DNA of 64,000 bases from Ornithinibacillus caprae (GTDB lineage Bacteria; Bacillota; Bacilli; Bacillales; Amphibacillaceae). Where the stretch lies: contig NZ_WOCA01000002.1 of assembly GCF_009728145.1 (NCBI RefSeq), positions 186,001 through 250,000 on the forward strand. The letters are read 5' to 3'. Each line of letters opens with the position of its first letter. Within the stretch, counting starts at the first letter, position 1. The position numbers and the translations under genes were made by a program. Under the pieces are notes generated by a model. That model ran no database searches, had not been told where the DNA came from, and was given only the letters and a program-made list of their open reading frames with translations. Of the stretch, positions 11,561 to 18,779 are shown piece by piece.

Positions 11561-12100
11561 ATGGAAGATGAAAAAGAATTTTCATTTGAAGAGATTTTCA
11601 AGCAAAACGAGAGGAGGATACATTTCTATATTCACAAACTGGGACTTCATGATCCACATCGGGAGTACTATGTAGAAGGTATTTACGCGATGTGGATTGC
11701 CTATAAGAAATACCAACCAGACAAAGGCCCGTTATCAACTTACTTCAATTACACCATCCGCAATCGCCTCATCGATATGCTCCGCAAAAAAGAAAGGGAA
11801 ACCCACCATAAAGAAAAAATTGTTCAAGAGGAAATAACGAAGATTGATAATGGAAATAGAGATGGTAAGAGCAACATTCCTATTGTAGAGACGGCAGGGA
11901 TTACGTTAGAAGACGAAGGTCTATGGGACGAGCTTCAGGCAAGATTAACCAAAAACCAAATGAAGTGGGTTTACTATCATATTGTGATTGGAATGAAGCT
12001 AAATGAAATTGCAGAACAAGAAGACGTCTCGTTAAATGCTGTAAAAAGCTGGGGAAGAGAAGCGAGAAAGAAGCTAAAGGATATAGGAAGAATAGAGTGA
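11561..12100 (+). CDS. Small sigma-70 family RNA polymerase sigma factor
   Basis: The 179-residue protein starts at the ATG at 11561 behind AAGGAGGAGA. Residues 8-80 look like sigma region 2 (FEEIFKQNERRIHFYIHKLG, then YFNYTIRNRLIDMLRKKER) and residues 125-175 like region 4 (MKLNEIAEQEDVSLNAVKSWGREARKKL, a helix-turn-helix). No ECF-type regions beyond 2 and 4 are evident. Similar small sigma factors occur in Bacillaceae and their prophages. No anti-sigma gene is adjacent; the next gene is 270 bases away behind a hairpin. An upstream in-frame extension through the terminator is unlikely. Target promoters are unknown. Confidence 0.82.
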   Translation: MEDEKEFSFEEIFKQNERRIHFYIHKLGLHDPHREYYVEGIYAMWIAYKKYQPDKGPLSTYFNYTIRNRLIDMLRKKERETHHKEKIVQEEITKIDNGNRDGKSNIPIVETAGITLEDEGLWDELQARLTKNQMKWVYYHIVIGMKLNEIAEQEDVSLNAVKSWGREARKKLKDIGRIE

Positions 12101-15000: not shown

Positions 15001-15032
15001 CGGGGCTGGTTGCTGGGTTGGCTTGGTTGTTT

Positions 15033-15275
15033 GGGGTCAGGTCCCTCGTCCCAGGGAGGGGTGCAATTTGGGGTCAGGTCCCCCGTCCCAGAGAGGGATG
15101 CAATGTGGGGGTCAGGTCCCCCGTCCCAGAGAGGGATGCAATGTGGGGTCAGGTCCCGTGTCCCAGAGAGGGATGCAATGTGGGGTCAGGTCCCGTGTCC
15201 CAGAGAGGGGTGCAATGTGGGGTCAGGTCCCCCGTCCCAAAAGGGATGCAATAAGGGACCTGACCCCCTGTCCCA
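15033..15275. repeat. Tandem array of the GGGGTCAGGTCC repeat, period 37 bp, closed by an inverted copy
   Basis: Direct units begin at 15033, 15070, 15108, 15145, 15182 and 15219 (37 bases apart, one 38), each reading GGGGTCAGGTCCC, a GTCCC block, AGAGAGGGATGCAAT. The last element (15254-15275) is the reverse complement, AGGGACCTGACCCC. The whole array can fold into a large hairpin between two convergent genes and probably ends both transcripts. Open frames through it are artefacts of the repeat. Confidence 0.93.
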
Positions 15276-16465: not shown

Positions 16466-16540
16466 CAGGTATCACTTCCTTTAATAAAAATAATAGGATG
16501 CTAGAACTTTACTCCTAACATCCAACGTTTTTCCAAATGA

Positions 16541-16606
16541 TTAGCGGCCACCCCACCAGCACCACCAGCAAGTTACTTTGATTTTATGTAGTTTGCGGAT
16601 TTTCAT
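16541..16606 (-). CDS. Micropeptide, 21 residues, Trp/Cys-rich core CWWCWWGGR; candidate peptide precursor
   Basis: This reading frame is short but has all the marks of a gene: AAAGGAGGTG (16616-16625) precedes an ATG at 16606 (a TTG at 16612 is an alternative that adds two residues). The first 12 residues are basic and hydrophobic (MKIRKLHKIKVT), and the last nine are CWWCWWGGR before a TAA stop. The gene begins 25 bases after the HD-GYP stop and ends 75 bases before the PqqD-M50 protease. A leader-like basic segment followed by a compact, unusual core next to a peptide-binding protease is what ribosomally made modified peptides look like. No radical-SAM, P450 or prenyltransferase gene is adjacent, so any modification is unknown. 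Confidence 0.72.
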   Translation of the reverse strand: MKIRKLHKIKVTCWWCWWGGR

Positions 16607-16631
16607 TGTCAATACACCTCCTTTCAAATAA

Positions 16632-17783
16632 TTAGTTATTATTGTTTTGATGGTACTCTTTCCAACTTGGATAAACTTCTATAAATAAATCTACTAATTG
16701 AGGATCAAATTGTGTTCCTTTTCCTTCAATGATACGCTTGTATGCTTCCTCAAGAGATAAAGCAGACCTATAGGATCTAGAAGAAGTCATCGCATCAAAG
16801 GAATCAGCAATTGTTGTGATTCTCGCTAATAATGAAATTTCCTTGCCCTTTAATCCATCTGGGTAACCATTTCCATCCCAGCGTTCATGGTGGTGATAAA
16901 TTATATCGATGTATCCAGATATTCCTTCCACATCTTGGACAGACTTTGCTCCAACCGTAGGATGTTGTTTAACTAATTCGAATTCTTCATCTGTTAATCT
17001 TCCAGGTTTCGTTAAAATCGCATCTGGGATATTGATCTTCCCTATATCATGTAATAGACATGTATAGTAGAAGTTTTTTAATTGCTCTTCCTTAAATTTG
17101 CCTGTCGCTTTTGCTAAACTCATGGCATAATAAGCAACTCGTTCACTATGACCGCGTGTGTAAGGGTCTTTTAGTTCTAAAGTAGCAATAACACCTTTTA
17201 CAATACCTTCTAATTGTTTATCGTATGTACTCTTAACTGCCTTCACATAGCTGAGGAAACGATATAAAAGAAATGAAGAAAGTATTGCTATGACGGCTAC
17301 TATTAGTAATGGGAGTAACACAATTGGATCTTGGAGCACGATCCCCACGACTAAGAACTTTGTAACCGTTCCTAAAAATACTAAATAAAAAAACTTTTTA
17401 TTGATAAATAAAGGTGCAAACAATACAATAACAACCTCAGCGATATTACCGTTTGCATAAGTTGCATCTTTTCCCCAGTAAATCCATATATCGTTACAAG
17501 TATTAAGAATTGTATATGTAATAAAATAAATATATTTTATCCATTCAGGTCTTTGATTTTTCATTAAATAAATAGCCAAGGGTAATAGACCAATCATGAT
17601 AATATACATAAATATATTTAGCCCAACATTGGGAGAATCCTCTATACTCCAGGGTGTTTTAGGCAATATATAATAATAAGTGATATCATAGCCCAAATAA
17701 AGTGTATAAAATAACCACAAAAACCACTTGGTCGCTCGTTTTTCCTCAAATAGTAACGATTCTTGAAGTATTTTCTTTTCCAT
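16632..17783 (-). CDS. Membrane HD-GYP domain protein, probable c-di-GMP phosphodiesterase
   Basis: A 383-residue protein with about six membrane helices in residues 18-180 and a cytoplasmic HD-GYP domain in residues 190-365. The metal-binding pair is intact (HDIGK at 245-249) and the GYP motif is present (HHHERWDGNGYPDGLKG, 297-313), so hydrolysis of c-di-GMP is expected. The N-terminal membrane part is not a recognised sensor domain and could sense a ligand. It lies 47 bases downstream of a GGDEF gene and 25 bases upstream of the Trp/Cys micropeptide gene, suggesting one operon in which synthesis and breakdown of c-di-GMP are linked to the peptide. Confidence 0.9.
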   Translation of the reverse strand: MEKKILQESLLFEEKRATKWFLWLFYTLYLGYDITYYYILPKTPWSIEDSPNVGLNIFMYIIMIGLLPLAIYLMKNQRPEWIKYIYFITYTILNTCNDIWIYWGKDATYANGNIAEVVIVLFAPLFINKKFFYLVFLGTVTKFLVVGIVLQDPIVLLPLLIVAVIAILSSFLLYRFLSYVKAVKSTYDKQLEGIVKGVIATLELKDPYTRGHSERVAYYAMSLAKATGKFKEEQLKNFYYTCLLHDIGKINIPDAILTKPGRLTDEEFELVKQHPTVGAKSVQDVEGISGYIDIIYHHHERWDGNGYPDGLKGKEISLLARITTIADSFDAMTSSRSYRSALSLEEAYKRIIEGKGTQFDPQLVDLFIEVYPSWKEYHQNNNN

Positions 17784-17830
17784 GCTGTTATCCTCTCGAT
17801 CTTAAAAATATAACGTTTGTATAATAGTTT

Positions 17831-18472
17831 CTAGTCTATTTTGCTTCCTTTGCTAGAAGCCTTGATTTCATACATTTTCTCATCTGATAAAGAAATTAAC
17901 TTATCGACGGTTTTTCCATCTTCAGGAAAGATAGCAATACCAATAGATAATTGAATATTTAGATTCTGATCTGTAGTTAATTCGTCTACACTTTCATGTA
18001 ATTGATGTACTAGTTTGCCAGCAGTTTCTCTATCTATATTTTGATAGATGACGAGAAATTCATCCCCACCCCATCTAATAACTAAGTCTCTATTACTAGT
18101 TTTGCTAGATAGGACTTTGCAAATTTCTTTTAATATATAGTCTCCATATTGATGTCCATAGGTATCGTTTATGTATTTAAAATGATCAACATCGACATTG
18201 AATATTGCAAGGGATTCTTTTTTACGTGTTGCTTTTGCGAGCATTTTTGGAATAACTTTATATCCGTACCTGCGATTATAAACCATTGTTAAAGGGTCTC
18301 TATAAGATAGGAAACGATATTTATCGTATGAGTAACCAACAATCCATGATAAAACGGTATAAAAAATGCTGAATATAATCGCCAAAGGTTGTATCTGATC
18401 AACAAGAAAAAAGTGAGTGACTGATGATGTAATCATTAAAGTGCAAAAGGTAATTCTACCAGTATATCTCAT
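17831..18472 (-). CDS. GGDEF domain protein, probable diguanylate cyclase
   Basis: A 213-residue protein with two N-terminal membrane helices (about 8-46) and a GGDEF domain with the intact active-site motif RWGGDEF (GGDEF at 135-139) and the substrate loop LTMVYNRRYG. The I-site RxxD expected a few residues upstream of the motif is absent (text there is SNRDLVIRW), so product inhibition by that route is unlikely. It is the first gene of a minus-strand operon with the HD-GYP protein, the micropeptide and the PqqD-M50 protease. No periplasmic sensor domain is present. The ATG is used as start; the upstream 80 bases hold the likely promoter. Confidence 0.9.
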   Translation of the reverse strand: MRYTGRITFCTLMITSSVTHFFLVDQIQPLAIIFSIFYTVLSWIVGYSYDKYRFLSYRDPLTMVYNRRYGYKVIPKMLAKATRKKESLAIFNVDVDHFKYINDTYGHQYGDYILKEICKVLSSKTSNRDLVIRWGGDEFLVIYQNIDRETAGKLVHQLHESVDELTTDQNLNIQLSIGIAIFPEDGKTVDKLISLSDEKMYEIKASSKGSKID

Positions 18473-18559
18473 CGTAATCTCCTAAAACATTCGAATACCA
18501 TCTAGTATAATATTACTAGTTTATAAAGTAAATTGGCGGAAAATTTAAATTAAAGCAAT

Positions 18560-18679
18560 TGGGGGACAGGTCCATAGTCCCGGTTTGAAGTGAATTGGGG
18601 TCAGGTCCCTTGTCCCGATTCCTTTTCCTAAATTGGAGGCAATAAGGGACCCGACCCCCTGTCCCACCCCCTGTCCCAT
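18560..18679. repeat. Cluster of GGGGTCAGGTCC repeats in both orientations
   Basis: The stretch holds GGGGGACAGGTCC, a GGGGTCAGGTCCC copy and, in reverse orientation, AGGGACCCGACCCC followed by two CCCCTGTCCCA blocks. It fills the 380-base gap between the divergent GGDEF and GntR genes, along with the gntR promoter. Confidence 0.88.
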
Positions 18680-18779
18680 TTGTGATAAAATCAAATTTCC
18701 TCTTGACGAAACTTTTTAAATCTTTATAATAGTTGTTAATTAAATTTTAAATAAGATTCATAAAATTCGTTTAAAAGGA

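Follow-up and report, generated by a model that had tools for sequence, protein, structure and literature searches.

Short precursor peptides handled by membrane proteases are a feature of several described bacterial systems. In AgrBDCA, a small precursor, partly conserved and partly variable, is encoded in a gene cluster together with a dedicated membrane protease and a polytopic membrane receptor. The protease Eep belongs to the M50 family. It trims short peptides to signals in the SHP/Rgg systems, according to one report (PMC13361665). In the epipeptide systems, the small precursor YydF/EpeX lies beside an intramembrane M50 protease, YydH/EpeP of the LiaK family. A locus in Ornithinibacillus caprae (contig NZ_WOCA01000002.1, positions 186,001 to 250,000, a stretch of 64,000 nucleotides referred to here as the window) brings together three genes on the minus strand, encoding a MASE12-HD-GYP protein, a 21-residue micropeptide with a CWWC motif and an M50 protease with an N-terminal RRE domain. 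A short peptide with an M50 protease and a dedicated receptor is a known kind of arrangement, and the locus points to a bacterial peptide-signalling system that has not been described. On balance, the three genes probably, if only slightly so, constitute a peptide-signalling cassette in which the micropeptide is the precursor. No description of such a cassette was found in the open-access literature, and neither "M50" nor "HD-GYP" occurs in the main text of two papers (PMC12710340, PMC7470986).

The cassette resembles AgrBDCA in the layout of its precursor, the membrane protease, the proposed membrane receptor and the clustering of the genes. Nonetheless, the protease is unrelated (an M50 protein with an RRE domain, not AgrB), there is no evidence of a thiolactone, and the predicted output is the hydrolysis of cyclic dimeric guanosine monophosphate (c-di-GMP). 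With the Eep-processed RRNPP pheromones of the SHP/Rgg type it shares a short peptide and a membrane metalloprotease as the source of the signal, and a distant branch of the protease family adjoins helix-turn-helix tetratricopeptide repeat (HTH-TPR)/RNPP regulators. The receptor proposed here is, however, the membrane protein MASE12-HD-GYP rather than a cytoplasmic TPR regulator, the precursor carries a putative RRE leader, and no HTH-TPR receptor gene recurs in the CWWC branch. The epipeptide systems are similar in having a small precursor beside an intramembrane M50 protease, and the LiaK/YydH model recognises the window protease weakly, at 22.6 bits against a cut-off of 225. In contrast to them, no radical S-adenosylmethionine (SAM) enzyme recurs at the CWWC loci, the protease has an RRE domain, and the partner is a predicted c-di-GMP phosphodiesterase.

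To our knowledge, it is largely open which signals act on the HD-GYP and GGDEF enzymes of Gram-positive bacteria, and we know of no precedent for a MASE12-type receptor with c-di-GMP output for such peptides. If the micropeptide is a MASE12 ligand, it would constitute a defined, genetically encoded and lineage-specific input to a c-di-GMP enzyme. The locus also exposes a set of micropeptides that escape current models (no NCBIfam model matches the five tried, at E up to 10) and gives the MASE12 domain a plausible function. Judging from the distant branch, RRE-M50 proteases may be a more general means of making short signals.

The CWWC micropeptide and the RRE-M50 protease

The micropeptide gene (MKIRKLHKIKVTCWWCWWGGR, minus strand, 16606-16541) comprises a leader (MKIRKLHKIKVT, 16606-16571), the CWWC motif with a variable tail, WWGGR (16570-16544), and a stop codon (16543-16541), and is preceded by the Shine-Dalgarno sequence AAAGGAGGTG (16624-16615). 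The gaps between the GGDEF, HD-GYP, micropeptide and M50 genes are 47, 25 and 75 bases. A preliminary description of the window had reported this gene order, the gaps, the 21-codon frame and the AAAGGAGGTG site, all of which proved exact when the sequence was read again.

The M50 alignment, used as a query against public genomes, retrieved 142 relatives, the best 80 of which are the loci analysed here. These Bacillales loci overlap in species with a second set, 43 genomes of the order that carry the clade M50 protease, defined by a score above 430 bits; G053, a member of the query alignment that has no peptide, was left out and counted with the distant set, and weak M50 matches in G059, G074 and G119:C60 stand outside the counts. 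The M50 alignment (A1) was made without L014, whose gene has one internal stop, and without the fragment L018.

When 61 relatives were searched with the M50 protein, 18 matches were obtained, and the 16 best (L001-L016) have a frame starting MK[IV]RKL and leading to CWWC directly upstream; the other two, one of 28% identity and one a fragment, have no small frame there. The micropeptide was found 5' of the M50 gene in all 80 Bacillales loci, from hosts including Virgibacillus, Ornithinibacillus, Oceanobacillus, Sporosarcina, Solibacillus, Gracilibacillus, Neobacillus, Mesobacillus and others. The motif is exactly CWWC in 75 of them, CFWC, CYWC, CWVC or CWIC in four, and CWWC beyond an insertion in the last (L066). 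Across the order, the clade M50 protease occurs in 43 of 397 genomes, all of which have the peptide: 41 were detected by pattern and two (G365, G424), in which the start is slightly different, by their reading frames. Absence of the frame from the same place in relatives, which the preliminary description had named as the outcome that would count against it, was looked for and the frame was found to be kept throughout.

Among 74 standard-length peptides, identity at codon positions 1 and 2 is 0.95-1.00 for most leader and CWWC residues (the exceptions being residues 6-9 and 11), and at position 3 it goes down to 0.45-0.80 for many residues. Third positions that vary against fixed first and second ones are the mark of a translated frame. 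A Shine-Dalgarno-like site, permissively defined, stands ahead of all 80 peptides scored (the window included, L066 not scored). The exact TCWWC pattern gave 29 matches in 24 genomes in the DNA of the 61 relatives, against two for a reversed control pattern; the 15 matches in the leader frame are all in M50 genomes, and the remainder belong to unrelated frames. Conservation upstream of M50 and the coding pattern of substitutions rule out a chance or misread frame, and sequence comparison shows the micropeptide frame to be a real gene, strictly linked to the M50 gene.

The leader has 12 residues, is basic and strongly conserved, and reads approximately MKIRKLKK[IV]K[TV]T. Both cysteines of the motif, C-[WFY]-[WVI]-C, are kept in all 80 loci. 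The tail, of 2-10 residues, is hypervariable, with 76 distinct versions among 80 peptides (window included). Conservation of the leader together with a CWWCWWGGR core had been set as a check; the leader and the cysteine motif stood up to it and the tail did not.

The protease gene (minus strand, 16465-15278) encodes 395 amino acids, with the RRE domain at about residues 1-90 and HEFGH at 172-176. Its AlphaFold2 model, based on 81 sequences, has a predicted local distance difference test score of 91.6. In a Foldseek search, the best PDB matches of the N-terminal domain are RRE domains, several of them solved with leader peptides: TbiB1 with its leader, a lasso B1 protein (6jx3), also with leader, 5why/5wgg (which we take to be CteB), SkfB and McbB are at the top, RREs of sactipeptide enzymes being included. 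These matches have probabilities of 0.82-1.00 and a best E-value of 0.12 (none below 0.1), and express likeness of fold only. E. coli RseP appears at rank 15 of the Foldseek list. The protein had earlier been called a PqqD-like M50 partner of the peptide, a view upheld by the RRE fold and the invariant HEFGH. Neither Pfam nor NCBIfam models detect PqqD in the window protein, and Pfam PqqD matches one distant homologue under cut-off (E 0.0012); the Pfam Peptidase_M50 match of the window protein (1.5e-4) is also under its gathering cut-off. HEFGH (H172, E173, H176) and D273, the probable distant aspartate ligand, are invariant in the 81 sequences, and the modelled helix bearing HExxH spans residues 154-182, a configuration expected of an M50 intramembrane metalloprotease. 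The RRE fold and the invariant M50 motifs together indicate that the protein joins a domain of the leader-binding type to an intramembrane metalloprotease. By predicted fold and by sequence, respectively, the locus holds both elements of an RRE system, the leader-binding-type domain and a linked short precursor with leader and core.

The spacer between the peptide and protease genes contains a terminator- or attenuator-like hairpin, GGATGTTAGGA...TTCTAGCATCC, and after it a T-rich run (16487-16523, minus strand). By a simple score of our own, a hairpin with T's is present in 71 of 80 spacers (the window and 79 loci, L066 left out), whereas in 10 rounds of mononucleotide shuffling an average of 2.8 spacers, and never more than 6, scored as having one. 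Stems of the form GGATGCTA...TAGCATCC occur in most of the spacers printed, of which 35 were aligned. The hairpin looks like a read-through terminator that would favour the precursor over the protease. No Rfam family or c-di-GMP riboswitch reached gathering score between window positions 12000 and 22000. In Oceanobacillus bengalensis (L066:9243-10000), several hundred bases, possibly a small mobile element, are inserted between the CWWC peptide and M50 genes.

MASE12-HD-GYP and the distribution of MASE12

The nearest gene 5' of the peptide encodes a MASE12-HD-GYP protein in all 79 loci that have this gene whole, the contig of L076 seemingly beginning inside it, and an HD-GYP motif lies 0.4-0.5 kb ahead of M50 in each of the 43 order genomes. 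The close tie to a c-di-GMP phosphodiesterase suggested by the preliminary description is supported. In the window, this predicted phosphodiesterase gene (minus strand, 17783-16632) encodes 383 amino acids, with Pfam matches to MASE12 (3.6e-39) and HD_5 (3.1e-38). Both domains were detected in all 80 HD-GYP proteins scanned (window included), in which the HD and GYP catalytic motifs are invariant, and the HD-GYP fold matches PDB entries 4mcw and 4r8z (E ~1e-11); motifs and modelled fold are those expected of an HD-GYP phosphodiesterase. MASE12 occupies residues 13-173 and is predicted to form six helices. Its mean identity is 0.42, compared to 0.71 for the HD-GYP domain of the same proteins (n=79), a divergence that would suit a recognition domain under rapid evolution.

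Among the 61 relatives, MASE12 occurs in 16, the same 16 that have the peptide and the clade M50 protease. The 397 order genomes include 52 with MASE12 and 43 with the clade M50 protease: 42 have both, ten MASE12 only and one M50 only (G099, the L076 contig). The two matches lie side by side in all 42 genomes with both. These tallies were made by eye, and below-cut-off MASE12 matches in G162 and G170 were not counted. Across the phylum, MASE12 was found in two of 398 genomes, both of the same order, and it was absent from the 14 control genomes. The domain is nearly restricted to the peptide/M50 setting.

In the ten genomes with MASE12 only, as in five further copies (G026, G040, two in G363, G088), the domain is carried by histidine kinases, called by sequence motif and in three cases confirmed by Pfam. 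Related kinases, identified by clustering and motif, are encoded upstream of the HD-GYP gene within 10 kb in 40 of the 80 loci, and just 3' of the protease in at least seven of the 43 genomes, long flanks being available for 15. At L231:7407-9014, a MASE12-PAS histidine kinase gene is divergent from a MASE12-HD-GYP/CWWC/M50 cassette.

Distant RRE-M50 loci

Distant homologues of the RRE-M50 protease, of 25-31% identity to the window protein, were examined at 18 loci. None has a MASE12-HD-GYP gene beside the protease; L216 alone has an HD-GYP match, 2.4 kb away. With L216 as the exception, the other 17 have a frame of 20-27 residues with a ribosome site 0.2-2.9 kb ahead of the M50 start, with leaders such as MKIEVKKTEKLKPT, MKKIKIKKVEKLVPL and MKKIVVRKLETVSVP, and eight of these 17 have two to five tandem precursor copies, some with differing ends. 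ThiF-family enzymes are encoded beside the protease in all seven loci scanned with Pfam, and OppA-like binding proteins in both of the two scanned. HTH-TPR regulators occur at no fewer than seven of the 18 loci, one of them matching RNPP_C; being of the kind that reads imported peptides, they have been counted in favour of a signalling function.

The leaders at these RRE-M50/ThiF loci of other Bacillales align with the CWWC leader, whereas the CWWC branch lacks ThiF and has one precursor copy per locus, no second micropeptide having been found at any CWWC locus. When a profile of 12 distant leaders, aligned by eye, was applied, all 78 distinct CWWC peptides outscored all 400 same-residue shuffles. 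The 83 CWWC-type sequences group in a single clade when 101 M50 proteins are placed in a tree (support 0.652, arbitrary root). ThiF-like RiPPs (ribosomally synthesized and post-translationally modified peptides) of lactic acid bacteria are reportedly the subject of a paper.

Tandem arrays of three to five similar micropeptides of 20-23 residues (such as MKIEVKKTEKLKPTFMPYGG) were seen at L203, L204, L207 and L210, approximately 1.3-1.8 kb ahead of M50. These loci have ThiF (by Pfam in L203 and L204) and RRE-M50 genes, three of the four also have an HTH-TPR regulator, and the arrays represent a second precursor family, possibly undescribed. At L200, L201 and L202, triple copies of MKKIVVRKL(E/A)TV(S/T)VPQLRPGT lie beside RRE-M50, a ThiF enzyme (by Pfam in L200 and L202) and an HTH-TPR regulator. 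Pfam also recognises OppA-like binding proteins in L200 and L202, and the whole gene set might serve peptide processing, import and sensing. More distant RRE-M50 relatives (H1-H20, 23-28% identity), mostly annotated as hypothetical, were observed on plasmids of Streptomyces, Nocardia and other actinobacteria and on a Priestia plasmid.

Proposed mechanism, alternatives and neighbouring features

In the proposed cassette, the basic leader would dock on the N-terminal RRE domain of the protease and the intramembrane M50 site would remove it, so that a short C-W-W-C-(tail) peptide is set free, either at the membrane or past it. The two cysteines of this peptide perhaps form a disulfide, and its variable tail would provide a lineage-specific version. 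The MASE12 domain of the adjacent HD-GYP protein, and perhaps that of the MASE12 histidine kinases as well, may read this peptide and so alter c-di-GMP hydrolysis in one direction or the other, with the terminator-like hairpin holding the protease mRNA under that of the precursor. A more tentative extension, which we place a little short of probable, is that leader-guided micropeptides trimmed by RRE-M50 proteases without further modification represent a new signalling class of the Bacillales, in which MASE12 would read the peptide in the membrane and the peptide would switch a phosphodiesterase (in some lineages a histidine kinase) without a transcription factor, the wider RRE-M50/ThiF superfamily pairing elsewhere with RRNPP-type regulators.

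Sensing by MASE12 is consistent with the covariation of the tail. Tail distance correlates with MASE12 distance (r 0.44, n=79), and the correlation is 0.22 when controlled for the HD-GYP domain, the M50 membrane part giving 0.09 (n=79). Controlled for all other regions, it is 0.20, and the two protease regions give 0.00 and -0.01. Several observations weigh against the signalling interpretation. The HD-GYP domain keeps 0.14 after control for all other regions, so the MASE12 signal is only modestly specific, and partial Mantel tests make correlations look too significant when the sequences are related. Covariation of the tail with the MASE12 domain of the kinases was tested with a negative outcome (partial r 0.04 with the kinase domain controlled, p 0.235, n=37), and the kinase domain itself keeps 0.26 (n=37), which indicates that the kinases may read something else. 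Ten of the 52 MASE12 genomes carry the domain on a kinase only, without the clade M50 protease; their four exact TCWWC matches include none in the leader frame, a search that CFWC-type variants would escape. MASE12 has no convincing match to any solved fold, and no exporter or importer recurs at the loci.

The strict linkage to MASE12-HD-GYP and the covariation of tail and MASE12 would fit an intramembrane contact equally well as an external signal. The micropeptide may then be an unreleased, membrane-embedded regulatory subunit of MASE12-HD-GYP, which the RRE-M50 protease captures and destroys to set its level. The uncut peptide, whose sequence has a basic and a hydrophobic end, suits such a role, as does the lack of a recurrent exporter. 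We nevertheless consider it unlikely, given that the RREs found by Foldseek come from proteins that mature RiPPs, several of them with the leader peptide in the solved structure, that the tandem precursors, ThiF enzymes and HTH-TPR regulators of the homologous systems fit a released product, and that tails of such diversity seem more than a structural subunit requires.

An epipeptide-like antimicrobial or stress-inducing product, its production merely coupled to lifestyle by HD-GYP, is a poorer candidate. The only NCBIfam models matched by the protease, all far under cut-off, are the M50 models of daptides and YydH/LiaK (epipeptides), and the M50 protease EpeP suffices for production of the epipeptide EpeX, according to a review (PMC10885120). 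Against this, the constant partner is a predicted c-di-GMP phosphodiesterase with its own sensor, and, apart from the M50 and MASE12 proteins, every protein cluster is confined to 26 or fewer of the 80 loci. A radical-SAM-type cysteine motif was found within 5-6 kb in three of the 80 loci only, in a zinc-cluster-like protein. As had been noted for the window, no modifying enzyme is adjacent, and none recurs among the 80 loci, a genome-wide search for one not having been made; the cassette is therefore not filed as a RiPP system in the strict sense. That CWWC binds metal, haem or a redox partner, with the peptide serving as the cofactor of a sensor or as a PQQ- or pearlin-like scaffold product and not as a cell-cell signal, would suit the two invariant cysteines and the M50 proteases TglG and TmoG, which cut 3-thia amino acids off substrate peptides according to the same review (PMC10885120), but is improbable in view of the hypervariable tail and the lack of a recurrent modifying enzyme (metal or redox genes were not searched by name).

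The gene furthest upstream in the window group encodes a GGDEF diguanylate cyclase (minus strand, 18472-17831; 213 amino acids, RWGGDEF motif, Pfam GGDEF 5.4e-41). Its homologue lies upstream of HD-GYP in only six of the 80 loci, and a GGDEF-motif frame is present anywhere in the examined flanks of ten, or 11 with L070, whose homologue escapes the motif. A core part for GGDEF is ruled out by this count, and the role that the preliminary description had given this gene is not sustained. Of the membrane parts of the two nucleotide enzymes, put forward there as candidate peptide sensors, the MASE12 domain of HD-GYP is left as the best candidate. Repeat units of the type GGGGTCAGGTCCC...GTCCCAGAGAGGGATGCAATGTG, which look like members of an intergenic repeat family, lie on both sides of the cassette (window positions 15020-15270 and 18555-18690) and may be the signature of a segment that moves or recombines.

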